Below, piece by piece: positions 23,791-42,337 of a DNA stretch of 64,000 bases (its first letter is position 1; each line of letters starts with the position of its first letter). The stretch is from Blastopirellula sp. J2-11 (lineage in GTDB: Bacteria; Planctomycetota; Planctomycetia; Pirellulales; Pirellulaceae): contig NZ_CP097384.1 of NCBI RefSeq assembly GCF_024584705.1, positions 2,852,001-2,916,000 of the forward strand. The letters are read 5' to 3'. The notes beneath the pieces were generated by a model. The model had not been told where the DNA came from. It saw only the letters and a program-made list of their open reading frames with translations, and ran no database searches. A program made the position numbers and the translations under genes.

Positions 23791-25752
23791 TTAGATTCGA
23801 TCGAGCGAATCAAGCCAGCGAGTGATCGCAGTACGATCGTCATCGGTCAGCTTGTCGGCGCCTTTGGCCGCGCTGCGATGGACGACGGGGAACTTCATCT
23901 TGGCGAGCGCTTCATCCAGCTTCTTCAACTGCGCCGCTTGCGGCGACATGTCGTCGTAGAGCGTAAAAATTGCGAGACGATGAAGCGGGTCATTATCAGG
24001 AGGTTGCACGCCGCGCGGAATGGGCGCGGCCAAGGTGACGACGCCGGCGATCGCTTCTCGGTTTTCAAAGGCGACCATGTAGGCCATCGCACCGCCGCTG
24101 CGAACGCCGACCAGCGCCGTGCGGCCTGGGGCGATATTGTATTTGCCGGCCAACTGTTCGATGCATTTGCGCACGACGCCGGTTTCGGACGGCGTCCAGC
24201 GCTCTTTCGACGCCGGCGACACCGACAGGAGAATGGCGCCGGACTGTTTACAAACCGCTTTCCACGCGTCGATCGTCGCTTGCTTATCGACGTCGCCTGG
24301 TTCTTGCAGCAGAACGAGCAAGCTGTAGCGGCGATCGGCGTGATAGTCGTCTGGGATCCAGGCAAACGCCGCGTTCGGCTCTTCGGCCAAGCGAACTTCG
24401 ACTTCGCCGGTCTGCGGCGGTTGGGCTGGTTGCTCTACTTCTTTCGACCAAGCCGCCGGCAATTCGCCAGGCACGCTGGTCGGCAAGGTCGCCAAAGTGA
24501 TCTCGGCGTTCTTTTCTTCTTCGCCGCGCCGGTAGACCAGTTGGATCGCCGTATCCGGCTCCAAGGCCGAGATCTGAGTTCGCAACTCATCAACGGTCGT
24601 CGCCGGTTTGTCGTTGACTCGCACGATCACATCACCGGCCGTCAGGCCAGCCGTTGCGGCGGGGCTATCGGCTAGCACGTCGCGGACGACGATTCCTTCG
24701 GCGTCGCGCACCGGCAAGATGCCGAGAAACGGATGAGCGTACGGCACTAGCACCGCGGTCAGCGTCGCTTTGACTTCGACCGAATCATCGCCGCGCTGCA
24801 AGGTCAAAGCGACCTCGTCGCCGGCGTACATCGGTTCGAGCTGGTGTTTCATTTGAGCATGGTTAACAACCTGGCGCCCTTGGATGGCGGTGATGATGTC
24901 GCCGGCAAGGATACCCGACTCTTGAGCGGGTGAATTGTAGCGAACCGCTCCGATCTCGGGGCGATCGGCCATGATGTCGTTCCCCTTCAGACTGATTCCC
25001 AGCAAGCCTTGCCGGAGGTCTTCTCCCTGCATCAACTTTTCTAGGCGGGGCTGCATCTCGGTCAGGGGAACCGCGAAGCCGATGCCAGAGTCATACCAGT
25101 CGGCGCCTGCCTGAGGACCGGTCGCTTGCGGCGATAGCGACGTGATGACGCCGATGACGCGACCATGAATGTCGATCAGCGCGCCGCCGTAGTTGTTCGG
25201 TGAGATTTTGGCGTCCGATTGAATCGCTTTGCCCCAGACGCGATGCAGCGCGCTGAGCACGCCGATTGAAGCGTTCGCGTCGACCGGCGAAAACGACTTG
25301 CCGACAGCGATCGTCCATTGGCCGACGCGAAGGTCGTCGCGAGGAACAAATGTGGGTACCGGCAGCGGCTCTTCGGCGTTGATCTTCAACAGCACCAGGT
25401 TGCGACTGTGATCGCGGGCGATGATTTTAGCCGAGGTGCGTTTGCCGCCGGGTAGCGACGCCAAAATAGAGGTCGGTTCATGGACGAAGTTATAACTGCT
25501 GGAAAGCAGGTAGCCGTCGGCCGAAACGACCAACGCACTGCATGGGCCGCCGCCGGCGAGTTGATCGCCAACTTTTTCGAGGCCGCCGACCGTTTCGATC
25601 TGAATGACCGAGGGGGCGACAACTTCGACCGCTTCGCGCAGCGCTTTCTGTTCGAGCGTATTGAGATCTTCCGCCCCTTGGATGACCGCCGACAGGGACG
25701 CGAAGAAACCGAGGGCGACCCCCAGCATTGCGAGCGAGTATTTCTTATTCAT
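23791..25752 (-). CDS. Catalytically dead HtrA-like protein with two PDZ domains and a C-terminal hydrolase-like domain
   Basis: 653 aa with a Sec signal (1-27). The trypsin-fold domain (about 35-240) lacks all three catalytic residues by alignment with its intact paralogue two genes upstream. Tyr87 replaces His (GYLLSSSYN), Asn118 replaces Asp (SRNLVLLKI) and Tyr188 replaces Ser (SPNNYGGAL). Two PDZ domains follow (about 248-335 and 342-422, with SPAQESGILAGDII and SPAATAGLTAGDVI). The C-terminal part (about 455-653) resembles an alpha/beta-hydrolase, with Ser552 in GVRSGGAMA, although the first glycine of GxSxG is Val. It is probably a periplasmic scaffold or binding protein. The ATG overlaps the preceding gene by 8 bp. 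Confidence 0.85.
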   Translation of the reverse strand: MNKKYSLAMLGVALGFFASLSAVIQGAEDLNTLEQKALREAVEVVAPSVIQIETVGGLEKVGDQLAGGGPCSALVVSADGYLLSSSYNFVHEPTSILASLPGGKRTSAKIIARDHSRNLVLLKINAEEPLPVPTFVPRDDLRVGQWTIAVGKSFSPVDANASIGVLSALHRVWGKAIQSDAKISPNNYGGALIDIHGRVIGVITSLSPQATGPQAGADWYDSGIGFAVPLTEMQPRLEKLMQGEDLRQGLLGISLKGNDIMADRPEIGAVRYNSPAQESGILAGDIITAIQGRQVVNHAQMKHQLEPMYAGDEVALTLQRGDDSVEVKATLTAVLVPYAHPFLGILPVRDAEGIVVRDVLADSPAATAGLTAGDVIVRVNDKPATTVDELRTQISALEPDTAIQLVYRRGEEEKNAEITLATLPTSVPGELPAAWSKEVEQPAQPPQTGEVEVRLAEEPNAAFAWIPDDYHADRRYSLLVLLQEPGDVDKQATIDAWKAVCKQSGAILLSVSPASKERWTPSETGVVRKCIEQLAGKYNIAPGRTALVGVRSGGAMAYMVAFENREAIAGVVTLAAPIPRGVQPPDNDPLHRLAIFTLYDDMSPQAAQLKKLDEALAKMKFPVVHRSAAKGADKLTDDDRTAITRWLDSLDRI

Positions 25753-26752
25753 TAAGCGTAACTTCGATAAGTTCGTCGCCGCGAAGCAGCGTCAGACGGA
25801 CGGGATCGTCCCGATCAATAAAGGTTAGCTCTTCGCGCAGATCTCGCTGCGAAGAAATCAGTCGCCGCTCGACAAACATCACCAGGTCGTTGGGCCGCAA
25901 ACCGGCGGTCTCGGCCGGCGATTCCGGCGCGACACGTTCGACAAACGGCGGCGTTTTCGGCAGCACGTCCGGCAGCAGGATCAAACCAAGTTGCGCCAGC
26001 GTAATCGGCTGCATTGGACGATTTTGATTTTCATCGCGAGAGCGAGGGCGAAATCGGCCGCTGAGGATATCTTCGACCGAATTTTGCAGCTCACGAATCG
26101 GTATCGAATAGTTGAGCCAAACGTTGTTGGATGCATTGCGAATTTCTTTGCCTAGCACGCCTGCGATTTGCCCTTGCTGATCGGTCAACGCTCCGCCGGC
26201 GGCGCCGGGGTTGTTGGTCATCGCGTCGACGACGTAGACCGGGCCTTTGTAGCGAACCTCGGCGGCGCTGCGTCGTCCTTGCAGGTCGGTGATTGCGGTG
26301 ATGTACCCATGCAGCACGCTCGCCGGTTCGTCGCCGGTAGCGATGCCGTACAAGTTGCTGAAGGTCAGAACGCGCTGTCCCGAGGTGAGCTCGACCGACT
26401 CGTCCAGGTTGAAGAAGGGCAAGTCGTCGGCGTCGACTTTCAGGACGGCGACTTCCAGTTCGGGATCGGCGCCGACCAGTTCGGCCGTAAAACGGCGACC
26501 ATCGTTGGCGACAATGGTGATGACGCTCGAATCAAGCACGTAGCTCCAGACCGTCAGGATGTGTCCTTCCGGCGAAATCACGAAGCCGCTCTGGTACGAT
26601 TCCAAACCGCGTAGACCGCCGGCGCCAAAGATCTTGACGATTCGAGGCTGCACGCCGCGAATGGTTTTCGCAAGCGAAGACTCGGCCTGCGCGGCCGAGG
26701 TCAGCAAGCCGAGCGAAAGGGTCAGCGCAATAACAAACGGGCTACGGTTCAT
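25745..26752 (-). CDS. Catalytically dead trypsin-like (HtrA-type) protein with PDZ domain
   Basis: 335 aa from ATG 26752. The 26788 start reads into the upstream gene. Signal peptide MNRSPFVIALTLSLGLLTSAAQA. The trypsin fold aligns well with the next gene upstream, but the triad is gone: Ser70 for His (HILTVWSYV), Glu100 for Asp (DPELEVAVLKV) and Ala185 for Ser (NPGAAGGAL). The surrounding oxyanion glycines remain, suggesting a preserved binding fold rather than decay. One PDZ domain is at about 240-335 (SPAETAGLRPNDLV). It overlaps the neighbouring genes by 4 bp and 8 bp, so stoichiometry may be coupled to the active protease. Confidence 0.87.
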   Translation of the reverse strand: MNRSPFVIALTLSLGLLTSAAQAESSLAKTIRGVQPRIVKIFGAGGLRGLESYQSGFVISPEGHILTVWSYVLDSSVITIVANDGRRFTAELVGADPELEVAVLKVDADDLPFFNLDESVELTSGQRVLTFSNLYGIATGDEPASVLHGYITAITDLQGRRSAAEVRYKGPVYVVDAMTNNPGAAGGALTDQQGQIAGVLGKEIRNASNNVWLNYSIPIRELQNSVEDILSGRFRPRSRDENQNRPMQPITLAQLGLILLPDVLPKTPPFVERVAPESPAETAGLRPNDLVMFVERRLISSQRDLREELTFIDRDDPVRLTLLRGDELIEVTLNE

Positions 26753-28470
26753 GCGGCATCCTTCGGTTCGGACGACGACAAGGTCCACTTCAGACCATGT
26801 AGGATATTGTAAATCTGATCGCCGCGGCGAATGATGATTTTGGTTGGCAGCCGGACTCCCTCGAAATCGTCATACTCCTGGAAACGGAGCTCGCACGGAT
26901 CCGAGTCTGCTTCGGGGAACATTTCCATCGCGATTAGATCGCCGGTCTGGGGAGCGAAGTAAAAACGCGTTTCGATCGCATCGTAGAGCCCGATCAGTAC
27001 GTCGAATCGCTCGTCGATCGAATCCAATGGCGCGGTTCCTAAGTAGGAGACCTCGCCGAATTTTTCGAGGCCCTGCAATTGCAGTCGCTGCCAAGCATGC
27101 AGCGCGAGCAGCAATCCGCCGCTCCCGGCAGGTTCCAGCTTGCTGGTCAAATCTCCTTCGATCTCGATCGTCGAATCTCGGCCTGCGACCGAAGCGGTCA
27201 CCTTCAGCGGGCTCAATTCAATTTGCGCGGCGTCGCCGTCCGCTAGTTGACCGGCGACTTTCCAGACGTCGAGGGAAGAATCGTCTCCTCGCTTCCAGGC
27301 TTGCCAGGTGCGGTCACGCTGCTCCAGATTGAAGTGATAGTTCGCGTAGCCAGAGCGAGCTTTGAACAGCTTTTTCAATTCATCCGAGACCGGCTTCGCT
27401 TCTTCGTCGTGATCTTCCGGATGAGATCCATCGGGGCTTGGAGGAGCGACCGACTTTTGGATTTTGGCGAGCAGTTCTTCCCGCGAATGGACCCCCGCCA
27501 AGCGAACGATAATGTCATGCCGTTCGCCGCCGCGGAAGAAGCCGACCGGAACGCGCCAGCCGCGCGGATAAATGCCGAGTGCGTTTTTAAAGCCGTTGAC
27601 CGTCGTGACCGGTTTCGAGCCGAACGAGACAAGCTCGTCGCCGTAGCGGAGCCCGCGACGATAGGCGTCGGACGTGTCCAGGATGTTGGTGACGATCACT
27701 TCGCCTTCGGAATCGGTCGAAACCGTCGCGCCCAAGGTTGCGTGGTCGACGACTCGGCCGCTTTTCAGGTAACCGAGGAAGTTCATCACCTGGTTCATCG
27801 AAATTGCGTAGCCGACGCCGACATTGACGCGTCCTCGCTTCTCGATCGAGATCCTGCCGTTGATGCCGATCACTTGGCCATCGCGATTGAAGAGGGGCCC
27901 GCCCGAGTTGCCGGGGTTGATCGAAGCGTCGGTCTGAATGCAATCGGTGTATTCAATCAACGTGCCGCTGGGGTACTGATAGCGTCCGACGCCGGAGACC
28001 ATGCCCCAGGTGACGGTTGGCTGCATGTCGGTCGCCAGTAAAAAGGGATTGCCGATGGCGAAGCACCAATCGCCGACTTCCACTTTGTCGCTATCGCCGA
28101 TTTCTGCGGCTGGAAAATCGTCGCGGCCTTGCAATTTGATCAGCGCGACGTCCCCGACCGGATCGATACCGACGATGACGGCGTCATACAATTGCCCATC
28201 CGAAAGGCTGCACTTCATGAACGATCCGGCAGGATCGGCGACGTGATAATTGGTGACCGCATAGCCGTCACTGGAGATCAAGACTCCGCTGCCGCCGCCG
28301 GCGGCGCCGGCGAAAACGCAAACCGCAGAGCGGGTCGCTTTTTCGACCGCCGCGATCCGAGCGTTCTCGGCGTCTAAGACCTCTTGGGGAGGCGCAGCAT
28401 CAAGACTCGCGAACGTTCCCAAAAACGCCGCGGCGAAACAGAGCGTGAAATAGGCGATACTACGCATCAT
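26749..28470 (-). CDS. HtrA/DegP-type serine protease with PDZ and C-terminal extension
   Basis: 573 aa. Signal peptide 1-25. The trypsin domain (about 40-240) has an intact triad: His76 (AVTNYHVAD), Asp107 (VGDVALIKL) and Ser189 (NPGNSGGPL). A PDZ-like domain follows (about 245-330). The last ~200 residues form an extension of unknown fold (SGYANYHFNLEQRDRTWQAW onward) that occurs only in planctomycete proteins as far as I can judge. It is expected to degrade or sense misfolded envelope proteins. The ATG overlaps the preceding gene's stop by 4 bp, and its own stop overlaps the next start by 4 bp. Confidence 0.92.
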   Translation of the reverse strand: MMRSIAYFTLCFAAAFLGTFASLDAAPPQEVLDAENARIAAVEKATRSAVCVFAGAAGGGSGVLISSDGYAVTNYHVADPAGSFMKCSLSDGQLYDAVIVGIDPVGDVALIKLQGRDDFPAAEIGDSDKVEVGDWCFAIGNPFLLATDMQPTVTWGMVSGVGRYQYPSGTLIEYTDCIQTDASINPGNSGGPLFNRDGQVIGINGRISIEKRGRVNVGVGYAISMNQVMNFLGYLKSGRVVDHATLGATVSTDSEGEVIVTNILDTSDAYRRGLRYGDELVSFGSKPVTTVNGFKNALGIYPRGWRVPVGFFRGGERHDIIVRLAGVHSREELLAKIQKSVAPPSPDGSHPEDHDEEAKPVSDELKKLFKARSGYANYHFNLEQRDRTWQAWKRGDDSSLDVWKVAGQLADGDAAQIELSPLKVTASVAGRDSTIEIEGDLTSKLEPAGSGGLLLALHAWQRLQLQGLEKFGEVSYLGTAPLDSIDERFDVLIGLYDAIETRFYFAPQTGDLIAMEMFPEADSDPCELRFQEYDDFEGVRLPTKIIIRRGDQIYNILHGLKWTLSSSEPKDAA

Positions 28471-29666
28471 TTAATCAGCCGTGGTTGGCACAGATAAACG
28501 CGGTCCCCTAAATCGCCGTTGCCGGCGAAGTCGACGACAATTTTCAGACGTCGGGCGCCCCGAACGTCGCCGTGTATATCGAGAGACGTTTGATTCTCAT
28601 CCAGCACTTGGTCGACCAGCACCGTTTTGTCGGCCGTGATCGTCAGTTGCAAGGGACCGCTCGCCCCTGCTGGTAAACCGGCGAACGCATAAAACTGCCG
28701 CACATCTTCTGGAAGCAGATAGGTCAGCTCGGTGTGTGCATGCAGCGCGATGCCGTTGGCGAACGATTTCGCTTCGCCAGCCAGCGAGAGCTCGAGCGGC
28801 TGAGCGGCCGAGCCGGTTCGGACATCGGGTGCATAGATCAGCGAGAGCTGGTCACGCGACAAGTTAGAGGGAATAAAGCTCGTCCATGCGTCTTGATCGG
28901 GCGAGAGATCGGTCAGCGGAATAATGTTGCCGGCGGCGAAGTCGATCGCTTTGAGCGCCGCGAGCGCGACTGCGAACTTGCCGCCAGAGACCGATTCGAT
29001 CTGCAATAACTGTTCGTCCAGCATGATTTTGCCGGCGAAGATCACTCCGCCATCTTGCAGTTCAAGCTTGCAGATCGGCGTCGCTAGTTTGCGGTTGTTA
29101 CGTTGGTAGAAGAGGAGCCCGGCCATTTTGCTGAGCGGGATTTTGGCCTCCAGCTCATCGAGCTGAATCGACGCTTTGCCATCAATGATCGATTGAATGA
29201 TCGCTTCTTGATACGAGAGGTCATCGCCGCGGCGAATGACGACGGCGTCTCCCAGAATCTTTTCTTCTAGCAATTGATCCCAACGCTTATCGAACGAACG
29301 CTGGTCGCCATCGAGTCGCAGCATGCGCAAAGCAGTCGCCGGAACTTCGAACAAGTCGAAGTTTTGAGACGTGACGATGAACTTGCGATTCTCGAGGATA
29401 AAGTTTTTCACCTCCAGACGCGAACCATCGGCCAATTGCAGCAACGCGCCGCCCGACTCCGGCGAGGTTTCTTCGCCAGGGAAATCAACCCGCATCAACG
29501 AATCGTACGGAAAGGTCTCGTCGCCAACGCTCGTGCGCAGACCGATCTCATCCGCCGAGAGTTGACGCAACTCTCCGTGCATGGTGCGACCGTCCAGCGT
29601 TTCGACATCGACGTTGATCGCCGATAACGTGGATGCTGCGATCATGATGAGCGGAATGCAATTCAC
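28467..29666 (-). CDS. Secreted protein with C-terminal NPCBM domain
   Basis: 399 aa. A short hydrophobic N-terminus (MNCIPLIMIAASTLSA) looks like a signal peptide. Three similar beta-rich segments (VETLDGRTMHGELRQLS, LQLADGSRLEVKNFIL, LELQDGGVIFAGKIML) may be repeats of one small fold. The last ~125 residues match the NPCBM/NEW2 carbohydrate-binding module (SFANGIALHAHTELTYLLP, ending DRVYLCQPRLI). It probably binds glycans or envelope polymers. ATGA overlaps of 4 bp join it to both neighbours inside the MoxR operon. Confidence 0.8.
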   Translation of the reverse strand: MNCIPLIMIAASTLSAINVDVETLDGRTMHGELRQLSADEIGLRTSVGDETFPYDSLMRVDFPGEETSPESGGALLQLADGSRLEVKNFILENRKFIVTSQNFDLFEVPATALRMLRLDGDQRSFDKRWDQLLEEKILGDAVVIRRGDDLSYQEAIIQSIIDGKASIQLDELEAKIPLSKMAGLLFYQRNNRKLATPICKLELQDGGVIFAGKIMLDEQLLQIESVSGGKFAVALAALKAIDFAAGNIIPLTDLSPDQDAWTSFIPSNLSRDQLSLIYAPDVRTGSAAQPLELSLAGEAKSFANGIALHAHTELTYLLPEDVRQFYAFAGLPAGASGPLQLTITADKTVLVDQVLDENQTSLDIHGDVRGARRLKIVVDFAGNGDLGDRVYLCQPRLIK

Positions 29667-30718
29667 TTCGTATCCTCTTCGCGGGCCAGCTTGCGGAAAT
29701 ATTCTTCGATGACGCGTCGATAGTGCGATGGAAATTCGTTGGAGATGTGCTGCAACGCTTCTTGTCGCTCTTTGGGAGGCAGATTGCCCCAGTTGTCGCC
29801 GGGGTTCATCTTCTTTGGGTCGACGTTGCCGGGGCCTGAACCGCCGGCCGGCATCGTGTCATTCAAAGGACTGCTCGGCTGCGTGTTGTTGCCTCCTTGC
29901 TGACCTCCCTGCGATTGTTGCTGTTGCTGCTGCATCTGCTTTTCAAGATCTTCGATCATCTTGTCGAGCTTGGCGACCACATCTTCTTCCTGCGTACGAA
30001 CCTTTTTGCCGGCGCGCCCCAGATCAAGTCGACGCTCGACATCGCGCATCAGACGCGCGATTTCGTCCAGCGAATCGGTCTCGAGCGGTTGAATGTCGGC
30101 CAGCATCAGTTTGGCGACCGTCAGATAGCGGGGAGCGATCTGTTCTTGGTTCGAGAGCAACGTTCCGAGGGTTGCGACGCAGTCTTCTTTCTTCAGCAAG
30201 TAATGTTCGCAAACGGCCCGATGAAACAGCAGCGCCGCCGGGTCGGCGACCTCGGCGACCGGCGCCTCTTTCAACTGCAGGTACGCTTCATCCAGCATCC
30301 GCTGTTCGGCGAGCCAACGGCCATATTGGAAACGTAGGTTATCGCGCATCCATTTGGGAAACGGTTTCGACTCGTCGGCCAACCAGGGGAACTGCGGGAG
30401 TTCGGCCTGGACGCTGGCGCCGAGCGTCGTCACCGCGAGTTCACGTGCGTCGGCGTCGATAATCGCAGCGGTCTCTAGCAAGCGGATACCCAACTCGGCA
30501 GGCGTGTCGCTGGGGGCCTCCTCTGGCCAGAGCTGCGAGACGGCGGTCATTTGTGCTTCGGGAGCGTCTGACTCGGTGAGCCAGTCGATCAACTTTTGGC
30601 GGATCTCCGGATATTCCGGGTTACGCCAGTCGGCCTGTTTTTGCAATGCATCCGCCGCACCGACTGCGGAAACAGTCGCCAGGCTCAGCACGATCGAAAG
30701 CAAGAGACGCGGCGTCAT
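29663..30718 (-). CDS. Secreted helical protein with Gln-rich linker
   Basis: 351 aa. Signal peptide MTPRLLLSIVLSLATVSAVGA. The body is helical, with HEAT/TPR-like character (residues 25-250). A linker rich in Gln, Gly and Pro follows (QMQQQQQQSQGGQQGG), then a conserved tail NLPPKERQEALQHISNEFPS and RRVIEEYFRKLAREE. The tail is common to planctomycete MoxR-operon proteins. No catalytic motif is visible. Four-base overlaps with both neighbours indicate translational coupling. It probably works with the KPGE-repeat protein encoded just before it. Confidence 0.72.
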   Translation of the reverse strand: MTPRLLLSIVLSLATVSAVGAADALQKQADWRNPEYPEIRQKLIDWLTESDAPEAQMTAVSQLWPEEAPSDTPAELGIRLLETAAIIDADARELAVTTLGASVQAELPQFPWLADESKPFPKWMRDNLRFQYGRWLAEQRMLDEAYLQLKEAPVAEVADPAALLFHRAVCEHYLLKKEDCVATLGTLLSNQEQIAPRYLTVAKLMLADIQPLETDSLDEIARLMRDVERRLDLGRAGKKVRTQEEDVVAKLDKMIEDLEKQMQQQQQQSQGGQQGGNNTQPSSPLNDTMPAGGSGPGNVDPKKMNPGDNWGNLPPKERQEALQHISNEFPSHYRRVIEEYFRKLAREEDTK

Positions 30719-32619
30719 TTGTTTTTCCCCAAAACGTTGTCCTGCGTGATTTGGTAGACGCGTTGTTGCCGTTGGGCGAGTTCGCGGAGCGCGTCGAGCA
30801 CTTCCTCGCTCGTCGCTTGACCCACTTCATCTTCGAGATCGCGTAATAGTTTCGAGTACCGATCGGTCCGCTGGTTGATGCGCACCTGCATCGACTTGAT
30901 CAATTTCAACTCTTGGATCTTGTTGACCAGCGATTCGTCTTGCTGGCCCTGCTGCTGTTGTTGTTGCTGCTGTTGTTGCTGTTGACGTTCTTCCTGATCC
31001 TTTTGGGCCTGCTTGAGCGCGGCCAACAACTCTTCCAGTGCGTCAATCACGTCTTGCTCAAGCGTCAACGTCAGCGGATCAACTTTGGATTGGCTCAAGC
31101 GATCAGCGATTTGCTGCATGTCGTCACGCAGTTGCTGCAGCGCTTCGGGAAAGGCGATCGACGATCCCTCTTCTTGCAATAACGTCAACGCCTTGTCGGC
31201 CTCTAGCACAATTTGCTTTTCAGCGAAGGCCAACTTGCCGGCTTGAATGTCTTCGGCGGCGCCGCGCTGCGGTTCGGGGACCTGCGACAAGCGTTCTGAA
31301 TCGTCGTACACTTTCAGTTGCATCTCAAGCATTTTGGAGAAGCGGGCTTCCAACCGGGCCAGCACGCGTTCGATTTCTTCTTCACGCAGCTGACGCAGCA
31401 CTTCTTCTAACTCAGCGATCGCTTTGGCCAACTCGCGTTCGGCCTCTTTTTGCTCTTCGATCGCTTCTTCGGTCTTTTTCTCGTCGAGATTCTTCTTCGC
31501 CTCTTCCATGCGCCGCTGGGCTTCTTCGACGCGCTGACGCGCCGGGAAGTCAGGCTGTTGCTGCTGTTGTTCTTGTTGTTGCTGATCGCCGGGCTGGGGC
31601 TCTCCTGGCTGCGGTTGACCCGGCTGAGGTTTTCCCGGTTGCGGTTGCCCGGGCTTTGATTCTCCTTCGCTCGGCTTCGATTCGCCTTCGCTGGGCTCAT
31701 TGGGAGATTGCTCGCCTGGCATCGGTTCGCCGGATTTCGACTCTTCGCCCGGTTTCTTTTCGCCGGACTCATCTTCGTCCGGTTTTTTCATTTCCCCTTC
31801 TTCACCCGGTTTGTCTTCGCCGGGCTTACTTTCACTAGGTTTCGACTCGCCGGGTTTGGATTCCCCCGGTTTCGATTCTGAGCCTTCAGAAGGCTGGGAC
31901 TCCCCTTCCCCTTTGCTCGGTTTCGCTTCGCCTTCACTGGGCTTTGAGTCCCCCTCTTGGCTGGGCTTCTCACCGACGGGATCTTGGTCGCCGTCCTGCT
32001 CTTCGCCAGAGGGATCCCCTTCAGATTGGGGCTCTTCGTTCTCTTTCATCCGCTGGGCAAGTTTCGCGGCGTCTTGCGACAGTTGGTCTTGTCCTTCCGC
32101 AAGTCGCTCAGAGTTTTCTCCCCCTTCGGCGCGACCTTGCAGACTGCGCTGGCGATTGAGGAGCTTGCGCGTGTCTTTGATGTATTCGCGAATTCGCTCT
32201 TGTTCTGACTTCAATTCGTCGTCGCGGTTCTCACTTTGCAGCAATTGCAGCAAGTTGCTGAGATCTTTCGAAACATCCTTTTGGCCGTCGACGGCTCGTT
32301 TCAATTTGCCATCGCCGAGGATCGCCGCCAGCGATTCGAGTTGCGAACGAATCAGCTTGTCTTTGCTGGAATGAGCCGCTTCACGCAGCAGTTTCGCGCG
32401 ATCGGGATTCTCAATCTCGTCGATCTCGGCCATCTTGATCATCAGATCTTCGAGACGCGAAAAGCCTTGGGCGAGCCGCGCTTGGCGTTCGGACAGCGCG
32501 GCTTCGGGTTTGGGCTCGACCGGCGCTTCGCCGGCGTCTTGGGCTTGCAGGCAAGCGGCCAGGGATAGAAAGACGGTGACCGCAGACGCCGTAAGCGACA
32601 AATTGCGTACATAGAACAT
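30715..32619 (-). CDS. Secreted coiled-coil protein with a KPGE/SEGES low-complexity repeat
   Basis: 634 aa from ATG 32619, with AGGAGG about 9 nt upstream. The 32643 start is less likely. Signal peptide to about residue 27. Residues ~30-200 are helical. About 200-365 is a strongly acidic, Pro/Gly/Ser/Lys repeat built on S-K-P-G-E and S-E-G-E units, ending in Gln runs. About 365-634 is long coiled coil (RVEEAQRRMEEAKKNLDEKK) with another run of ten or more Gln near 580. The repeat resembles cell-wall spanning segments of surface proteins, so the protein may bridge envelope layers. The function is unknown. Confidence 0.78.
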   Translation of the reverse strand: MFYVRNLSLTASAVTVFLSLAACLQAQDAGEAPVEPKPEAALSERQARLAQGFSRLEDLMIKMAEIDEIENPDRAKLLREAAHSSKDKLIRSQLESLAAILGDGKLKRAVDGQKDVSKDLSNLLQLLQSENRDDELKSEQERIREYIKDTRKLLNRQRSLQGRAEGGENSERLAEGQDQLSQDAAKLAQRMKENEEPQSEGDPSGEEQDGDQDPVGEKPSQEGDSKPSEGEAKPSKGEGESQPSEGSESKPGESKPGESKPSESKPGEDKPGEEGEMKKPDEDESGEKKPGEESKSGEPMPGEQSPNEPSEGESKPSEGESKPGQPQPGKPQPGQPQPGEPQPGDQQQQEQQQQQPDFPARQRVEEAQRRMEEAKKNLDEKKTEEAIEEQKEAERELAKAIAELEEVLRQLREEEIERVLARLEARFSKMLEMQLKVYDDSERLSQVPEPQRGAAEDIQAGKLAFAEKQIVLEADKALTLLQEEGSSIAFPEALQQLRDDMQQIADRLSQSKVDPLTLTLEQDVIDALEELLAALKQAQKDQEERQQQQQQQQQQQQGQQDESLVNKIQELKLIKSMQVRINQRTDRYSKLLRDLEDEVGQATSEEVLDALRELAQRQQRVYQITQDNVLGKNK

Positions 32620-32676
32620 CGGTCGGTCCCTCCTGGGCGGCATAGCCCGCCGTTACTCCAGTTTAAGCGGATTGTC

Positions 32677-35013
32677 TCAATCCGACGACTCTAAATTAAA
32701 CAGATCTCGGAATAGCCGCTTTTGCTCGGTTTCGGTATCTTTTTGCAATTCTTCCTGCAATTGAATGATTTCGCGGATTTGGTCGACCAGCTCGTTGAAG
32801 GTCTCCAGGTCGAGCATCTTGTCCAAGACTTGCTGCATCGCCAGGATGATCTCGTCCGTTTCGGCAATCGCGGCGCCAACCGACTCCACCGATTGGGTGG
32901 GATCGCTCAACGACGCTTCCAGCCGTTTGATCGCTTCTCGTAGGTCAGGCTGGCGGACGTCGGCGATCTGGTTGATCGGGCTGATCACGTCATTTTCGAG
33001 ACGTTCCTTCCGTTTCTCGGTATCGACGCGATTGTTGATGATCTCTTGGCGAATCTCCTCGAACCCCGCCGCGACCCCCCGCAGTTCTTCTTCCGCTTTG
33101 CGGCTGGCCTGGGGAGTTCGCTGCACGCGGAGCAGTTGTAACTCGATTGCCTGTTGCATCTTGGCGACGGGATCGGCAGCGTTTTCCCCTTCCAACTCGC
33201 CTGAGGAGAACGAACTGGGCCCGGTCGCGATTCTTTTGGCGTCGAGCTGAACGCGGACGAATTCTTCCCGCAACTGCTGGGTCTCTTGCAAGATCTGTTC
33301 AAAGCGCCGGCGTAGCCCAAGCTCCCGAGCTTCTAGTAACGATAGCAGTTTGCTGGGGGAGACTACATCCAGCGGATATCGCGTGCTGACGCCGATATTG
33401 GAACCGCCGGTCAGATCGTGCAGGTCGCTCGCTTTGAGGGTGAGCGAAATTTGATCTCCGGCGATCAGCTGCGGCGCTCCGGTCGTTTCTTTCAAATCGA
33501 GCACATAGTTGACTTCGCCTTGGGGGGTCGGCTTGATCGCGAAAGGGGTAATGTCGCCGTCGCCCGGTTGAACGTCGAGCCAAGCGTCTTTGGTTTCGTA
33601 GTCGTCGGTGATGGTTCCCAGGAGCGGGATCCGGGCCTGGGGCGTAATCGCCGTGCCGATGCCGGCCAACTGCAAGTTGACGTTGGGCGCCTGATCCGCG
33701 GTCGCTGCGATCTGCACGCGGAAGGGAGCTTCGCTATAAATACCGTCGCTATCGATCAAGGTGAGTTCCAACGACAAGTCGTCGGTCAGCGGTGGGAACT
33801 CCAGCTCGAACTGATCGTTCGGCTCGGTCAGCGTGATTTCGCTTTGGGTCTGCTCACGTAAGTTGGCGACTTCAACCCGGACGATCGGTTTGTTGGTTTT
33901 CGCCAACAGCTTGTACTGCGATCCGATCGGCAGTTCGGAGGAAGAGGTCAGCTCTGAGACGCGCGGCAGCAAATTGGTGTACTCTGGCGGAGCGGCGTCG
34001 ACTTGCATCGTCAAGACCGCCGGACTGTCAACCGCTTCGATCCTCAGACTGCGGAGACGATGGTCGTAGCCGATGACGTCAAACGAGATCGACGCCAAGA
34101 TGCTTTTCAGCGGCTTGCGCTGGAAGATGTAACGCTGATAGTCGCTGCGAGCGGCGCCGACGCGCTGCATCGCGACGCTGCCGCGCGCTCCATCGGCGGT
34201 CTCGTACACAATCGTGCAGTAAGCGGGAACCACTTCGGCGTCCGACTTGGCTCGCACCAGCAGTTTGGGAGAAGATCCCCGTGCGACGGTTGCAACACCA
34301 TCCTTAAACGGAATAACTTCGACCACATCGGCGGCGGTCGTGCCATCGCTGGCGGCCGAAGGGCGGCTTACTTCGACGCCGACTACTTCGATTCGAGCCA
34401 GACGTGGCCAGGCTTCGTCTGAGAGCCAATAGAGTCGACGTCCCCAAATTTGGAACGAATCAAACGAAATGGCGGCGAAAGCGCCGACGCTGATCAACAG
34501 GGCGACCGCCAACGTAATGTTGCGGGTCAGCGGCCAAGGATTGAAAATCTCGTTCAGCTTGACCTGACGGCTATTATCGAGCGCCTGGGTGACCGCCTGA
34601 CGGATCATGCCTTCGCGAAAAGCGACATCGGTCAGATCTTCTTCGACCGGACTTTCGACGGCGGTGAGCAGGCTCTCGTGGAACGCCGGATAGCGCCGCT
34701 CGATCAAGATCGCCATACTCGTGTCGGACATCCGCGCTACGAGGCGAATCAGGATCCAGCGATAAAAGATGTAAGCGCTGACCCCGTAAATCGCGACCAG
34801 GCAGACGATTCGCGCCTCGCGAGGCATTTCGCTAGCGCCAAAAGTAACCGGTAGATAGTCGACCGCCAGACCAATCCAAAAGGTGACGGCCAGCCAAGCG
34901 ACCAGCAGCGCCAGCCCTTCGAGCAGCACGTAGAGCCGAATCCGCCGGCGCAGCGAACCAAGCAGCTCGCGCAGATCGGCGGGAAGTTCGGATTTCGGTT
35001 GGGGCGTCGTCAT
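32677..35013 (-). CDS. DUF4175-like membrane protein
   Basis: 778 aa. Two transmembrane helices near the N-terminus (about 28-52 and 66-88) and a third at about 165-185 (NITLAVALLISVGAFAAISF) are followed by a large extracytoplasmic part with beta-sandwich segments. The final ~230 residues are helical and likely coiled coil (ELGLRRRFEQILQETQQLRE onward). The layout matches DUF4175 proteins that sit in MoxR/BatA-type operons. It is 18 bp after the VWA gene and 57 bp before the KPGE-repeat gene. The function is unknown. It may connect membrane VWA proteins to the envelope. Confidence 0.75.
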   Translation of the reverse strand: MTTPQPKSELPADLRELLGSLRRRIRLYVLLEGLALLVAWLAVTFWIGLAVDYLPVTFGASEMPREARIVCLVAIYGVSAYIFYRWILIRLVARMSDTSMAILIERRYPAFHESLLTAVESPVEEDLTDVAFREGMIRQAVTQALDNSRQVKLNEIFNPWPLTRNITLAVALLISVGAFAAISFDSFQIWGRRLYWLSDEAWPRLARIEVVGVEVSRPSAASDGTTAADVVEVIPFKDGVATVARGSSPKLLVRAKSDAEVVPAYCTIVYETADGARGSVAMQRVGAARSDYQRYIFQRKPLKSILASISFDVIGYDHRLRSLRIEAVDSPAVLTMQVDAAPPEYTNLLPRVSELTSSSELPIGSQYKLLAKTNKPIVRVEVANLREQTQSEITLTEPNDQFELEFPPLTDDLSLELTLIDSDGIYSEAPFRVQIAATADQAPNVNLQLAGIGTAITPQARIPLLGTITDDYETKDAWLDVQPGDGDITPFAIKPTPQGEVNYVLDLKETTGAPQLIAGDQISLTLKASDLHDLTGGSNIGVSTRYPLDVVSPSKLLSLLEARELGLRRRFEQILQETQQLREEFVRVQLDAKRIATGPSSFSSGELEGENAADPVAKMQQAIELQLLRVQRTPQASRKAEEELRGVAAGFEEIRQEIINNRVDTEKRKERLENDVISPINQIADVRQPDLREAIKRLEASLSDPTQSVESVGAAIAETDEIILAMQQVLDKMLDLETFNELVDQIREIIQLQEELQKDTETEQKRLFRDLFNLESSD

Positions 35014-35031: not shown

Positions 35032-37815
35032 TTACGCTAATTTCAACAAGCGCCGCGTCAGCCATTCCAGGGCAAGCACCCCGCAAATCAGGCCGAGCAG
35101 CCATGTCCGCAGCAGCCGGTCGAACTTGCGATCGACCAAATCTGGCAGCGCAGTGTACATATCTTGGGGCGGCAACGTGGCCGGCAAATATACGGCCGGC
35201 AGCGCCGATTTGCCGAGCGCCGCGTCCATCCCTACGTAGTAGACGGCGCCGGTCCCCTCTGCGATTTGTCGCATCGAAGCGTCGTCGCGTTCCGGACGCT
35301 CAATCTCTTTGTCTGGCAGCCGCACGCGGATGTCCCGCGTCAGCAACGAATCTTCGCCGCCGCCGGCCAATTGCAACTCGATGTGGTAGTCTCCTTCGAT
35401 CAGCGGCGTAAATTGGCCGTGGTATTGGCCCTTCCCTCCCTGCTCGGCTTGCGTCAGCGTCAGTTCGTCACGACGACCGTCCGGGCGAGAGACCAACGCT
35501 TTGACCAACGGATCGGTCAGCGGCTCATGCTTGGCGTCGGTCAGGTGAGCGCGAACTTCAACCGTTTCGCCCACCAGCAAGCGGTCTTTGTTGGTCAACA
35601 AGACGCCGCGGCTCGAGTCTCGCAGCAAGCGCCCTTGCGATACGTAGCGGATCAACTTGGTATAGAACTGCTCAAAGTAGCCTTCGTGCAAAGCGCGAAT
35701 TCGCCACATCTCGGAACTTGCCATGAAGAAGACGCGCCCGGCGCCATAAAACTGGGTCGCCATATAAACCGGCGGATCATCGCCGAGCGTCGCATCGGGA
35801 TCGTTGTAGCGCGCCAAAATTGAAGCGCCTTCTTTTTTGTCGCGCACCGCGTAATAGCCGTAAACGCCGGCAAACTCTTCCCAGCGAGCGGCGCTGCCGG
35901 CGCCATCGTTGCCTAGCCACAAGAATGATTGCGACTGACCTTCCTTGGTAAAGACCAGCGGCCAGGCTTTATCCGAATCGAAGCGATTCTGGCCGATCGA
36001 AGTGCCGCGGCTATGGAAAGTGACGGGGTAAAGCTGTTTGACGATATCGATTACCGGATCACCGCGTCGTTGGCTGGCCCATTCGGCCGTAAAGACCGGA
36101 CCGGTGGTGACGATCAAGCCGCCGGCCTTCTCGGCGACCCACCGCTCGAGCAGTTCGGCTTGCTCCACGGTAAGTTGCGACCAATCGGGATCAAACGCGA
36201 CGATGCAGTCGTAGTTTTCAAACAGGTCAGCCGCATCGTTGGGGAAACTAAAGAGCAACTCGTCCGACTCTTGCGAAATGCCGGGCTTGCCGCTTTGCAG
36301 ATAGACGTGCAGTTCGACATCTTTGTCGCGATACAGTTGATTTCGCAAAAAGCGGAAGTCGCGGGAAGGTCCGCCGGCCATCAGCAGCACGCGGTTCTTC
36401 CGCTGAACGACTTGCACTTTGACATCTTTTTGATCGTCGCTGGTATCCTGATCAGAACCGGCCGGCGATAAAATTCGCAACTGATAGGTTCGCTCGCCCA
36501 GCGAGTCGGGAGTCACGTCAAACGTGGTCGCGACCACCGCGCCGTCAGCGCCCAAGGTAATGCGACGCGCTTCTCCCTCTAGCGATTCTTCGCGGAACTT
36601 GCCATCCGAGTCGGTTGTACCGGATGCAAGTTGCACGTTGACAAAGTCCGTCTTCGACGCGAAGGCCTGGATGTAGCCGGTGATTTGGAAGGCGTCGTTC
36701 GGGAAGACGCGCGACGGCGCTTCGAGATCGACAACCCGCAGATTGATCGGTCGCTCGGACGGTCCCAACCCGATCGGAAAGACCGGCGTCTCTGAATCGG
36801 CGGCGATCTGAATCGCTTCGCGAATATCGAGTCCGCCGTTGTTCACGCCGTCAGAAAGGAGCAGGATGCCGGCGATCGGCCGACCGCGCTCTTGTTGTAC
36901 GATTTGAGCGATCGCGTCGCCGATCCGCGTTTCGACGCCGTGCGGCTTGAGCTTGTCGAGCCAGTCAATGTCGGCATAGGTCGGCGCAGCCGCTTGCTCT
37001 TCGGCTTCGGTCTGTTCTGGCTGCGACGGCTGGGCCGCATGGACGCTTAGATCCCCTTGGGCCAATTGGCGCAGGCTGAGCTCGGGGGCTCGCAAGTTCG
37101 CCGTCGCGGCCAATGAGGCGCCGACGACCAACGCAAAAGCGCCAATCATCGACCAAGCGGCGGCGGTCTCGCGCCAACTGGGAGCCAGCCGACGCGTTGC
37201 GAGTGCGATCAAGTAAGCGAGTAGGCTGATCGCCAGCACGCCGAAGCTGATCAGCAGCAACAAGCGAGCCGAGCGGAAGCGAGCATCCATCTCGGCCGAA
37301 TCTTCGGTGTCCGAGACGGTATCGGTCTGCGGGCGACGAAAGACGGCCAATTCGGTTGGTTGCGCCGTTTGATCGAATTGATAGACCAACACGTCATGCG
37401 ATTTGCGCAATTGTTCGAGCAGTTCCCCTTCAGAGAACTTGTTGACGATCTGCTCGTAGCGCGGCGACGATCCGCTTTCGATGCTGTTGGGCAGCGCCAT
37501 GCTGAGGCTGGTGTCGACCAGTACGACGACACGCGAGTTTTCGTGCAGTTCGCTCTCGGTCTTCTTTTCGAGATTGAAAAAGAAGAGGAGCAGACCAGCC
37601 AGTGCGGCCAGTCGAAGTCCGGTCAACGTCCAGCGGACGGGACGTGATTGCTCACGCGTGTCGCGCCGATAGAGCCAGCCGACGAAGGTGATCACTGCGA
37701 CGACCAGAGCGACCAACAGCGCCCAATGACTCCACTGCGTCATTTCGGCCAGACGCGAGAACTCATAGGTGGTTCGCGTCGCGGCGGCGTCGGTTTGTGC
37801 GAGTAAGAAGGTCAT
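35032..37815 (-). CDS. VWA-domain membrane protein with glutamine-amidotransferase-like domain
   Basis: 927 aa from ATG 37815, overlapping the previous stop by 4 bp (ATGA). Upstream in-frame residues lie inside the neighbour. N-terminal helices at about 33-50 and 62-80 precede the VWA MIDAS motif VLVDTSLSM. Two further helices at about 180-235 interrupt the domain, which then resumes at GILLLSDGVNNGG. A class-I glutamine-amidotransferase-like region without its cysteine signature follows (VLLMAGGPSRDFRFLR at ~470). A final helix is at the C-terminus. Such proteins bind metal and partner proteins and are common clients of MoxR ATPases. Confidence 0.82.
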   Translation of the reverse strand: MTFLLAQTDAAATRTTYEFSRLAEMTQWSHWALLVALVVAVITFVGWLYRRDTREQSRPVRWTLTGLRLAALAGLLLFFFNLEKKTESELHENSRVVVLVDTSLSMALPNSIESGSSPRYEQIVNKFSEGELLEQLRKSHDVLVYQFDQTAQPTELAVFRRPQTDTVSDTEDSAEMDARFRSARLLLLISFGVLAISLLAYLIALATRRLAPSWRETAAAWSMIGAFALVVGASLAATANLRAPELSLRQLAQGDLSVHAAQPSQPEQTEAEEQAAAPTYADIDWLDKLKPHGVETRIGDAIAQIVQQERGRPIAGILLLSDGVNNGGLDIREAIQIAADSETPVFPIGLGPSERPINLRVVDLEAPSRVFPNDAFQITGYIQAFASKTDFVNVQLASGTTDSDGKFREESLEGEARRITLGADGAVVATTFDVTPDSLGERTYQLRILSPAGSDQDTSDDQKDVKVQVVQRKNRVLLMAGGPSRDFRFLRNQLYRDKDVELHVYLQSGKPGISQESDELLFSFPNDAADLFENYDCIVAFDPDWSQLTVEQAELLERWVAEKAGGLIVTTGPVFTAEWASQRRGDPVIDIVKQLYPVTFHSRGTSIGQNRFDSDKAWPLVFTKEGQSQSFLWLGNDGAGSAARWEEFAGVYGYYAVRDKKEGASILARYNDPDATLGDDPPVYMATQFYGAGRVFFMASSEMWRIRALHEGYFEQFYTKLIRYVSQGRLLRDSSRGVLLTNKDRLLVGETVEVRAHLTDAKHEPLTDPLVKALVSRPDGRRDELTLTQAEQGGKGQYHGQFTPLIEGDYHIELQLAGGGEDSLLTRDIRVRLPDKEIERPERDDASMRQIAEGTGAVYYVGMDAALGKSALPAVYLPATLPPQDMYTALPDLVDRKFDRLLRTWLLGLICGVLALEWLTRRLLKLA

Positions 37816-40112
37816 CGAGCGGCTCCCATCACAGGAGGATGGTAGCTCGTCAAGAATGCCAGTATCTGTTCCACGACCAGTAATCCTAACAACGCGTAGA
37901 GCAGATAGTCTTGCCAGGCGAAGCCTTCGCTGGCGCTCCAACTGTAGTCGACCGATTCGACGGTGTGATAGGTGAAGACGACCGGAGCGAGCGCCGCTTG
38001 CAGTTCACTGCGGTCGGTCGTCGTCAGATCGCCTTCAAGCGGATCGACGTTGAGCGCGAAGCGCCGCAGATTGGGAAGCCCGTCGCTTTGCGTCAGCCAA
38101 ATGTCATAGACGCCCGATAGACCGGTCAGCGAATCGCCGGTGATGTTGTTCACGCCGGCATAGTCGAGCTTTCTAAATGGGCGCGTTTCTTCTTTGGGCA
38201 GGAACGCGTCATCTCGTTTGACGGTCGGCATGCGATCGGCGCCGGGCGCGTAAACAAGCGCGTCACTGCGGAAGTTCGCTTCATCGACTTCCAAACGTAG
38301 CGGACTGCCGACCAGACGTTCGGTCGATTGCCGCGTGCCAGAGGCTAAGTAAGCTTGCAACTCGAGTGCGGTGACGATAAAGCCCGGCGTAATCGACCAG
38401 TTGTTCCAATCGGGAGTCAAGCTGGTCAGGAAGGTGACGACGCTGCCGTCGCCCACTTGCTGTTCGACGATCAGAGGTCGTCCGTCACGAAGTTTGCCGA
38501 GCACGGCGCCGTTGTCGCTGGGATTCCAGGTCGCGTCGAGATCGTAGTATTTGTAGAACTTCAAGTCGTTGCGGAATCGATTTTTCTCACCGCGAAAGAC
38601 GGCGAATATCGGATGTTCGGACGGCACAAAATCAACCGTCTCTTCGCCGGGAATCGACGGCGCTAGTTCTTTCGTGCCGATGACCGCCGCCGGCAGCAAA
38701 CCGCCGTCATGCAGCGAATTCAACGCATCCAGCGTCGTGCCGGGGCCGGCGAAGATCGCGACTCCGTGACCGCTGGCGGCGTACTGGTTCAGCTTCTCGA
38801 CCGCATTGCCGTCAAAGCGGGGAATATCAAACAGGTAGATCGCGTCAAAGCCTTGCAAGGTTTCGAGCGACGCATCCCGTAGGTATTGCGGACCAACGAC
38901 CAACGGTTGAATGCCGGTGTTGACCGCTTCGCCTGGCTGGAAGACGGCGGTCATGAAGTAGGCGTTCCGTTGATTTAGATCCCCATCGACCAGCAGCACC
39001 GGAATGCTCGGCGGCGCGTTCAAGATTTGAAAGCGGCGATTGTCGGCGGCGATAGCGTCGTCCGGCAACTGAGCGACGGCGACATGTTGTCCGGCGGTCG
39101 GAAAGAAAATCTGGGCGCGGCGGGTCACTTCTTCGCCCGGCGGGATTTCCTCGAAGTACACGGTCGGTTCAGAGTGCGGCGTACCGAGCCCTTCGCCGGC
39201 GCTGGTGAACTTGCGATCGACGCCGTCGTCGTGATAGGTCTGCAACTTGACTTGCACGCCGTTGGCAGGCGTGTCGCTATAATTGCGGACGGTCACTTCC
39301 AGGAAGGTCGGCACTCCTGCGGCCAACGTCGCGGATTCGGGCGCGAGACGCGTGATCCCCAGATTCACCGGATTGCGCCGAGAGCAATTCACCAGATGAA
39401 CTTCGGCGGTTCGGGTCGAAAGCTCTTGCAGGCGTTGTTTCACATCTTGCGATTGGGACCAATCGCGGCGGCGGAAGTCGCCAACCAGGTAGACGAGCGC
39501 ATTTTCGTTTTCGACATTGTCGGTGATGAAGCGGTTGACGGCCGCAATCGCTTCAGCCGGTCCGACGGATAACTCCGACGAGTCGACGCTGCGTAACGCT
39601 TCTTCCAGCGAATCGCGGAACGATGGATCGACATCGTCGCCGCTAATATCGACACGGGCGACCCCGCCGTCACCGGCGCCGGCTCGGGAAGTTCGCAGCA
39701 AAGTCAGACGTTGCGGCGTTCGCTTTTCGGCGGCTGCGGCGGCGATCTGTTTGATCACTTCGCGGCCGCGGTCCATGACTTCGACGCCGCCGGTGCGGTC
39801 TGACATCGAAAGGCTATCGTCCAAAATCACATAGTGATGCGTACCACCCCCGCCGAACAACGAGGACCATTGGTCCGAAGTGGTCAGGCCGGCCATGATG
39901 GCGACCAACAATGCGATCGCCGCCATGCGAGCGAGCAGCAGCAGCAGTTGTTTGAACCAGACCGAGCGTTGGTTCCGCTTCTGGCTTTCCAGCAAAAACT
40001 GCATCGCGGCCCATTGGACGCGGCGTCGTCGCATCATGTTGATCAAATGGATCAACACGGGGACGAGCAGGAGCAAAAAGCCCCATGTCAGTGCTGGATG
40101 AACAAACTGCAT
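37812..40112 (-). CDS. BatA-type membrane protein with VWA domain
   Basis: 766 aa. The N-terminus FVHPALTWGFLLLLVPVLIHLIN is the BatA (aerotolerance operon) N-terminal helix, and a second helix is at about 55-78. The VWA MIDAS motif is D98-x-S100-x-S102 in VILDDSLSM. Residues ~250-370 form a beta-sandwich (CARDB-like). A final transmembrane helix is at about 735-755 (YLLYALLGLLVVEQILAFL). It is anchored in the cytoplasmic membrane with a large outer part. It follows the DUF58 gene by 18 bp and overlaps the next gene by 4 bp. The role in planctomycetes is unknown. Confidence 0.87.
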   Translation of the reverse strand: MQFVHPALTWGFLLLLVPVLIHLINMMRRRRVQWAAMQFLLESQKRNQRSVWFKQLLLLLARMAAIALLVAIMAGLTTSDQWSSLFGGGGTHHYVILDDSLSMSDRTGGVEVMDRGREVIKQIAAAAAEKRTPQRLTLLRTSRAGAGDGGVARVDISGDDVDPSFRDSLEEALRSVDSSELSVGPAEAIAAVNRFITDNVENENALVYLVGDFRRRDWSQSQDVKQRLQELSTRTAEVHLVNCSRRNPVNLGITRLAPESATLAAGVPTFLEVTVRNYSDTPANGVQVKLQTYHDDGVDRKFTSAGEGLGTPHSEPTVYFEEIPPGEEVTRRAQIFFPTAGQHVAVAQLPDDAIAADNRRFQILNAPPSIPVLLVDGDLNQRNAYFMTAVFQPGEAVNTGIQPLVVGPQYLRDASLETLQGFDAIYLFDIPRFDGNAVEKLNQYAASGHGVAIFAGPGTTLDALNSLHDGGLLPAAVIGTKELAPSIPGEETVDFVPSEHPIFAVFRGEKNRFRNDLKFYKYYDLDATWNPSDNGAVLGKLRDGRPLIVEQQVGDGSVVTFLTSLTPDWNNWSITPGFIVTALELQAYLASGTRQSTERLVGSPLRLEVDEANFRSDALVYAPGADRMPTVKRDDAFLPKEETRPFRKLDYAGVNNITGDSLTGLSGVYDIWLTQSDGLPNLRRFALNVDPLEGDLTTTDRSELQAALAPVVFTYHTVESVDYSWSASEGFAWQDYLLYALLGLLVVEQILAFLTSYHPPVMGAAR

Positions 40113-40130: not shown

Positions 40131-41033
40131 TTAGTTGCGGTGGTGCATGCCAAGTCGGCTGTTCAAGTAGGTCGAAAGAATCGCTCCCAACGAATCGCTG
40201 GTGCGAACCAACGCGTAATCGACCGTGTTTTTCGCGCAGCCGCGACGAACTTCGTCTAGGTACGTCTGCATCGCTTTTAGGTATCCATCACGCAGCGCTC
40301 GGGGATTGCAGTCCAACTGATCGTCGGTCTCCATTCCCTCAAATCGAGTCGGGCCGCTAAAGGGGAAATCGAGTTCGTCGTCGTCCAGGATGTGGAATAC
40401 TAAGACATCGTGGCCACGCTGACGCAGCAGTTTCATTCCTTTGATGGTGTCTTCGACATCGCCAAATAAATCGGACGCGATCACCATCATGCCGCGGCGC
40501 GGATAAGCTTCGGCCGCTTCGCGACAGATTCGCAGAAAGCTGGTCTTCTCGCGCGGCTTGTTTTCGTCAAACGCTTTGATGACCGAAAGCAAATGGTTGC
40601 GTTTGCTCATCATCGGCACGCGCGCACGAATCTTTTCGTCGTAGATCGCGCAGCCGATCGCGTCTTGCTGCTTGAGCACTAGATAGGCTAGACTGGCCGC
40701 CGCGGTGCAGGCGTATTCGTACTTGTTGAGCGGTCCCGAGCCGTACTGCATGCTCGACGACGCGTCGATCAGCAACGTGCAACGCAGGTTGGTCTCTTCT
40801 TCAAACTGCTTGATGTAAAAGCGATCCTGCTTGGCCCAGACTTTCCAGTCGATATGACGTAGATCGTCTCCGGACGCGTATTCGCGATGTTGCAAGAACT
40901 CGATCGATTGACCGAAGTAAGGGCTGCGATGCATTCCCGAAAGAAAACCTTCGACGATATGCCGTGCCCGTAACTCTAGCCGAGTGATCTGCTTGATCGC
41001 CTCAGGATGCAAAAATCTTTTGGAATCGGGCAT
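40131..41033 (-). CDS. DUF58-domain protein
   Basis: 300 aa. The DUF58 signature [20 protein letters not shown] lies at 49-68. A VWA-like MIDAS motif follows at D90-x-S92-x-S94 ([10 protein letters not shown]). No transmembrane helices are present, unlike many DUF58 proteins, so it should be cytosolic. It overlaps the moxR gene by 32 bp, which is unusually long and suggests tight translational coupling. It is the standard partner of MoxR ATPases and probably acts as adaptor or substrate in assembly of the following VWA membrane proteins. Confidence 0.92.
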
Positions 41034-42054: not shown

Positions 42055-42337
42055 GAGCGGTTCCTTCGATCTGGCGGCAGATATTTCTAAAGGCGGTAGT
42101 TCGTAGGGCGAATTCGCCAACCATTAAAACGGCGATTCGTAGACTTCGTGTCGCAATGTTCACAATTAGTTCATCAAAGCCGATTTTCGACCTCAAAAGG
42201 TAGCTCGCAAATCAACATTGGGCCGTCTCCCTTCCCAAACGATGGGGTGGTGACGATTATACCGATTGCGCTAAGTTGTTGTACCGCAGGAGTTTATCGG
42301 AGGAGTGCCCGCGACGGCCCCGATTTGCCGCACGCGG

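Follow-up and report, generated by a model that had tools for sequence, protein, structure and literature searches.

We report on three consecutive genes, here called P1, P2 and P3, which in a 64,000-nucleotide stretch of the Blastopirellula sp. J2-11 genome (the window; contig NZ_CP097384.1, positions 2,852,001 to 2,916,000) encode an HtrA-type serine protease and two relatives without the catalytic triad. A first-pass annotation of this DNA had described three trypsin-fold genes overlapping by 4-8 bp, and this is borne out: P1 and P2 share ATGA (4 bp), and P2 and P3 share ATGAATAA (8 bp). For P2 the list of open reading frames (ORFs) gives a GTG start at window position 26788 (347 aa), and an ATG further downstream, at 26752, gives 335 aa; the P2 residue numbers of the first-pass annotation refer to the ATG start, and numbering from the GTG adds 12.

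The same annotation held that the trypsin folds and, in the dead copies, the PDZ domains have been kept, and both statements agree with our searches. Specifically, all three proteins match Pfam Trypsin_2 above its cut-off of 27.6 bits (P1 120, P2 77 and P3 68 bits), and PDZ_2 is found above cut-off in two stretches of P3 and one of P2, with P1 at 26.0 bits just under the cut-off of 27. The layout of the HtrA/Deg (S1C) superfamily, trypsin-like domain then PDZ, is hence present in the set, the PDZ of P1 being one bit short. The NCBIfam model for Do family serine endopeptidases (TIGR02037) has a cut-off of 416.2 bits and gives 234.7, 112.1 and 203.8 bits for P1, P2 and P3, respectively. Structure models of P2 and P3 have predicted local distance difference test (pLDDT) scores of 87 and 92, and their best Foldseek matches are DegQ and DegP chains.

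The triad columns were located by phmmer alignment to solved DegP/DegQ structures and by MAFFT alignment with five paralogues from the window genome whose triads are intact. Both routes gave the residues named at first pass, i.e. His76/Asp107/Ser189 in P1, Ser70/Glu100/Ala185 in P2 (82/112/197 from the GTG) and Tyr87/Asn118/Tyr188 in P3. The His-Asp-Ser triad of an active S1C peptidase is found in P1 and is absent from P2 and P3, and we therefore file the latter two as non-peptidase homologues. No triad was found elsewhere in the alignments to the solved DegP/DegQ structures, and a triad hidden by misalignment is disfavoured by these alignments, by the hidden Markov model alignment and by the MAFFT alignment with intact paralogues.

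P3 carries a C-terminal tail that had been called hydrolase-like. Its likeness to alpha/beta-hydrolases stands: an esterase/depolymerase model matches weakly in the window (26.6 bits, far under its cut-off of 150), and Pfam Abhydrolase_3 is found in 8 of 28 relatives at E <= 0.1. The correction concerns activity, since at position 551, where the nucleophile is expected, the window has Arg and only 3 of the 55 relatives with a residue there have Ser; the tail thus looks inactive too. Position 552 is Ser in 9/58 rows, and in those rows a one-place shift of the nucleophile elbow is possible. Several relatives have a short P3 without the tail, which places it outside the shared core. As a separate observation, 3 of 27 relatives show a weak likeness to DUF4292 in the C-terminal region of P1 (26749-27360 in the window, approximately 200 residues past the PDZ-like stretch); we take this family to resemble the lipoprotein-carrier fold.

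We searched 149 genomes of the family (Pirellulaceae), that of the window among them, for P2 orthologues; a match at E <= 7e-58 is present in 126 and absent from 23, and paralogues appear at 2e-48 and weaker. Sixty of the 125 non-window loci, covering 58 genera, were taken as a family set, and a second set of 60 loci was drawn in equal parts from other families of the order (20 loci in 19 genomes), from those of the class and from those of the phylum (20 loci each). Because loci were picked by a P2 or P3 match, neither set is informative on frequency. Residues were counted in both sets after splitting fused P1-P2 ORFs; family rows include the window, and rows missing a column (L153, one part of L166 and L085; L and G numbers are our handles for loci and genomes) were excluded from the complete-row counts.

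P1 has His, Asp and Ser in every complete row (59/59 in the family, 57/57 in the other set, 116/116 together). No full triad occurs in any P2 or P3 row examined (P2, 0/61 and 0/59, i.e. 0/120; P3, 0/58 and 0/58, i.e. 0/116), so the refuting condition named at first pass, relatives with normal triads in all three genes, was not encountered. At the His position P2 has Ser in 60/61 family rows and 40/59 rows of the other set, and His in none of the 120. Its nucleophile position is Ala in 53/61 and 27/59 rows, Ser in one and two rows, and T, Q, P, Y, G, F, H, D, N or E in the remainder. In P3 the nucleophile position is Tyr in 114 of 116 rows (57/58 in each set; the exceptions are Phe and Val); Phe, Tyr and Trp predominate at its His position, which is His in a single row of the 116. 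The claim that the oxyanion-region glycines are kept holds for P2, which has Gly at Ser-2 in 61/61 family rows, and not for P3 (1 of the 58 family rows with a letter there). Judged from these alignments, P2 has given up its nucleophile, and P3 has swapped the nucleophile for a specific, nearly fixed residue. Separately, one genome (G156) bears two trios (L150 and L151), and P3 of L150 has Val in place of the near-invariant Tyr.

The order P1-P2-P3, consecutive and co-directional among matched ORFs, is present in 56 of the 60 family loci. Two exceptions lie at contig ends (L092, cut before P1; L090, cut after P2 with P3 on another contig), and in two a gene is displaced (L068, P3 2.3 Mb away; L097, P1 on another contig). 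In the second set the order is kept in 57 of 60 loci, and a fusion joins P1 to P2 in two of these. Of the three exceptions, L143 shows P3 alone in its stretch, L162 has its P3 elsewhere, and in L173 P2 (7887-8963) directly follows a gene for an NPCBM-domain protein, neither P1 nor P3 being found in that genome.

Models of P1, P2 and P3 were each run against one set of 198 genomes of the class and found P1 in 147 (E <= 1e-60), P2 in 149 (E <= 3.6e-52) and P3 in 147 (E <= 1e-66). All three genes are present in 146 genomes, none in 49 and part of the set in three; 45 of the 49 belong to one family (f21), the others being G164, G234, G255 and G344, and the partial genomes (G263, P2 only; G399, P2 and P3; G395, P1 and P2) are all in at least 300 contigs. 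Moreover, the genes can be inherited together without being linked. G268 and G355, each a single contig, keep all three at separate places, with His-Asp-Ser in P1, S-D-G in P2 and Tyr in P3; in G340 and G265 the genes are on separate contigs or far apart; and in G028, G307, G393 and G382 P3 is far from P1-P2 on the same contig. The 16 stretches with displaced genes have the full triad in P1 (4/4), no triad in P2 (4/4) and Tyr in P3 (8/8), and models of the usual neighbours matched nothing in the fetched stretches of unlinked copies (L292-L307). Since the genes are kept together after the operon has dissolved, joint function is the simplest explanation, and hitch-hiking in an operon as the sole cause is disfavoured by G268 and G355. 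Taken together this suggests that the trio members, mostly kept or lost together, work as one unit.

In two loci P1 and P2 form one ORF, of 1045 residues in L186 (P1 with H/D/S, then P2 with S-G-Q) and of 1290 residues in L196 (P1 with H/D/S, then P2 with T-L-Y), and P3 is the next gene in both. If real and translated whole, these fusions would place P1 and P2 in one compartment and in equal number, and they are the best sequence evidence here for a putative physical association.

In a tree of 86 protease domains P1 (25 rows), P2 (25) and P3 (27) form one clade each with support 100, 99 and 100, and each clade extends to families outside the class; the tree was made by a quick method, 39 of its 83 inner branches are open and some paralogues sit on very long branches. 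Within-genus ratios of nonsynonymous to synonymous substitution rates (dN/dS), from four comparisons of four genomes, are 0.054-0.075 for P1, 0.038-0.149 for P2 and 0.078-0.139 for P3. Because the substituted sites are conserved over much of the class and at loci beyond it, dN/dS is low and the two dead genes each form a single old clade, the loss of catalysis in P2 and P3 is, on this comparative evidence, selected and not decay, as had been proposed. Among the best 80 of 544 relatives in a scan of named genomes the titles name planctomycetes, some genus or family titles being ones we take to be planctomycete, and L207 is titled only "bacterium".

The window genome has further trypsin-like genes with altered triads. 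A second tandem pair (L284, 652-2903; C1:1013200-1016700) consists of a gene with intact H/D/S followed by a degenerate one with Ser at the His position, Asp kept and Cys at the Ser position, and two other genes (L289, 342-1679; L291, 917-2116) have the broken triads R/T/A and S/P/Q and very long tree branches.

Table 1. The trio, its junctions and neighbouring genes (window coordinates)
Feature	Position	Strand	Remarks
P3, pseudoprotease	23791..25752	-	653 aa; trypsin fold with Y87/N118/Y188, two PDZ, alpha/beta-hydrolase-like tail
P2 stop/P3 start overlap	25745..25752	-	ATGAATAA, 8 bp; junction read directly
P2, pseudoprotease	25745..26752 (ATG)	-	trypsin fold and one PDZ; S/E/A in triad columns
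P1 stop/P2 start overlap	26749..26752	-	ATGA, 4 bp; junction read directly
P1, HtrA-type serine protease	26749..28470	-	573 aa; H76/D107/S189 intact, one PDZ-like stretch, ~200-residue C-terminal region
NPCBM-domain protein	28467..29666	-	most constant upstream neighbour of the trio; ATGA 4 bp overlap with P1
Q5, conserved neighbour	29663..30718	-	no Pfam family
Q6, conserved neighbour	30715..32643	-	no Pfam family; long charged/proline-rich stretch
Q7, conserved neighbour	32677..35013	-	no Pfam family above cut-off
VWA-like protein	35032..37941	-	weak match, below cut-off
BatA N-terminal family protein	37812..40112	-	family match
DUF58 protein	40131..41033	-	family match
MoxR-type AAA ATPase	41002..42120	-	AAA_3; bpMoxR matches too

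In the window the genes for the MoxR-type ATPase, the DUF58 protein, BatA and the VWA-like protein (a weak match) open a run of genes that the trio closes (Table 1). The MoxR gene scores 215 bits with AAA_3, which we take to be a name for the MoxR family, and 41 bits with bpMoxR (cut-off 27), and a gene for a PQQ-repeat protein adjoins it. A Bat/MoxR aerotolerance-type operon has genes for a MoxR ATPase, DUF58, BatA and VWA proteins in a row, and by this definition, which we give from general knowledge, such a row is present upstream of the trio. To describe the trio as tied to a MoxR/VWA operon, as was done at first pass, is too strong. The NPCBM gene is present in 56/60 family loci and BatA in 28/60 within the fetched stretches, some of which are shortened by contig ends, and so the link to MoxR is loose; moreover, in some genomes the genes lie apart. 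Promoter- and terminator-like sites were not in excess over shuffled sequence. Elsewhere in the window, at 18848-19106, there is an array of approximately 13 copies of a 20-bp unit with 97% matches.

What has to be explained is that the folds are kept and the triads lost, that the losses are fixed and ancient, and that the genes are co-inherited, overlapping and in two genomes fused. We propose, with a probability of roughly 0.6, that P2 and P3 join P1 in a mixed HtrA machine, as subunits with a regulatory or scaffolding role. The set would be an old three-subunit HtrA system with P1 as sole peptidase and P2 and P3 as dedicated non-catalytic relatives that retain the protease-PDZ scaffold. P2 and P3 are likely to form an assembly with P1 beyond the inner membrane (secretion was judged from N-termini and signal peptides read by eye), most likely via HtrA-type oligomerisation. 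They may bind ligands or clients through their PDZ domains and through a cleft that would be emptied in P2 and filled by tyrosine in P3, and may thereby position, gate or activate P1 and set when or what it cuts. That the dead copies belong to a mixed assembly as subunits had been suggested at first pass; co-inheritance, unlinked retention and the two fusions are consistent with this and would point in that direction.

A narrower proposal, for which we see a little less than an even chance, is an obligate three-chain machine with a fixed division of labour between a peptidase, an emptied-site scaffold and P3, whose near-invariant Tyr would occupy the cleft and serve there as an internal ligand mimic or a switch. 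P3 of the window's class, often with a second dead enzyme domain, would then be a pseudo-enzyme twice over, and the set would have lasted over most of the class and parts of others, even where the operon has been broken up.

Several points weigh against P2 and P3 being subunits of a P1 machine. Whole-chain Foldseek template modelling (TM) scores, normalised by query length, are modest (0.51 for P2, 0.37 for P3). Outside the family the nucleophile position of P2 is highly variable (A, Q, P, Y, G, F, H and others), and that site itself may therefore have no role. The absences of the trio amount to few independent events, in about five lineages, and beyond the class the set occurs patchily (of 199 genomes from across the phylum, 32 have P2 at E <= 3e-44, and 11 of these belong to the class). 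Searches of G263 (330 contigs, 89% complete) found P2, beside an NPCBM gene, but neither P1 nor P3, and in G133 P2 and P3 are adjacent and P1 is only on another contig. Finally, the fusions are possibly sequence errors, since both assemblies (L186 and L196) are fragmented.

It is also conceivable, and in our view rather unlikely, that P2 and P3 act in the pathway of P1 and outside its complex, as independent adaptors or chaperones that bind peptides or proteins for the NPCBM/BatA/MoxR module. Their retained PDZ domains, the constancy of NPCBM as a neighbour and the P2 of L173 alone beside NPCBM would fit such a role; the two P1-P2 fusions, and retention of the trio where NPCBM and the other neighbours are unlinked (L292-L307), speak against it.

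We think it improbable that the dead domains have taken on the binding of a small ligand or metal as a new function and control P1 only secondarily or not at all. The dead HtrA-type domain of MamO binds metal and activates MamE-dependent proteolysis (PMC4794232), and a nearly fixed Tyr with a mostly aromatic residue at the His position, as in P3, is what a specific site would lead one to expect; however, there is no His among the invariant or nearly invariant columns listed for P2 and P3, other metal motifs not having been sought. That P2 or P3 is still an enzyme with alternative catalytic residues is very improbable: P3 does conserve a Tyr where the nucleophile would be, but a general base is missing in both proteins, judging by the His position, P3 has no Gly at Ser-2 and its tail mostly lacks the usual serine. 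Decaying duplicates drifting towards loss would account for the longer branches of P2 and P3 relative to P1 (by eye), but this is scarcely credible with within-genus dN/dS of 0.04-0.15, ancient clades and substitutions that are fixed across the class as well as in further families of the phylum.

The preferred reading, a mixed machine in which dead members serve an active one, has parallels that qualify the earlier statement that no system of this form has been described; an active protease with dead kin is a known principle. MamE and MamO are both encoded in the magnetosome island, and MamO, without catalysis of its own, activates proteolysis that depends on MamE (PMC4794232); as here, an HtrA-type active protease and a dead HtrA relative share one gene cluster. 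The differences are that MamE has one dead partner and not two, that MamO has a metal-binding role and that MamO retains His and Asp with Thr for Ser (PMC4794232); the NCBIfam MamE and MamO models, with cut-offs of 800, give 130.9 and 54.6 for P1, 47.4 and 36.3 for P2 and 103.0 (MamE) for P3. In Clostridioides difficile spores two dead Csp proteins were proposed to restrain active CspB and to sense signals (PMC6464247). CspBA/CspC likewise combine one active and two dead relatives in one transcription unit, with the active and first dead members fused, but they are subtilisin-like and act in spore germination (PMC6464247), and they are not homologous to the trypsin-fold P1-P3. Plant Deg7, an HtrA family member, has active and degenerate protease domains in one chain, a layout similar to that of L186 and L196, and its dead domain is reported to serve trimerisation; it differs in being one plant gene with four PDZ domains and no third dead paralogue (PMC3473262). 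Finally, MoxR-vWA ternary conflict systems share the MoxR and vWA neighbours, but in them the vWA component carries the inactive trypsins as fused domains and the effectors are hypervariable (PMC7159879), whereas P2 and P3 are separate, PDZ-bearing, conserved and sometimes unlinked from MoxR. Such conflict systems are further defined by a third component of VMAP, iSTAND or beta-propeller type.

Literature searches on HtrA pseudoproteases, MoxR/Bat operons and planctomycete proteases and essential genes gave no description of the trio in titles and abstract openings, nor is it described in the accessible parts of PMC6411480 and PMC2754498, and none of the terms sought occurred in PMC12283558; the main text of PMC10632474, on gene essentiality in Planctopirus limnophila, has no mention of HtrA, trypsin or peptidase in the parts consulted. 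As far as these searches go, what is new is an HtrA set of three chains with two ancient, differently disarmed members.

To our knowledge, a partner has been identified for few bacterial pseudoproteases. In this case a likely partner, the dead sites and the joint inheritance are all visible in the sequences of 146 of the 198 genomes of the class, so the idea that a dead HtrA protein controls a live one becomes directly testable; carriers include near kin of Blastopirellula marina DSM 3645. The trio may thus offer a handle on a planctomycete route of envelope quality control or signalling.

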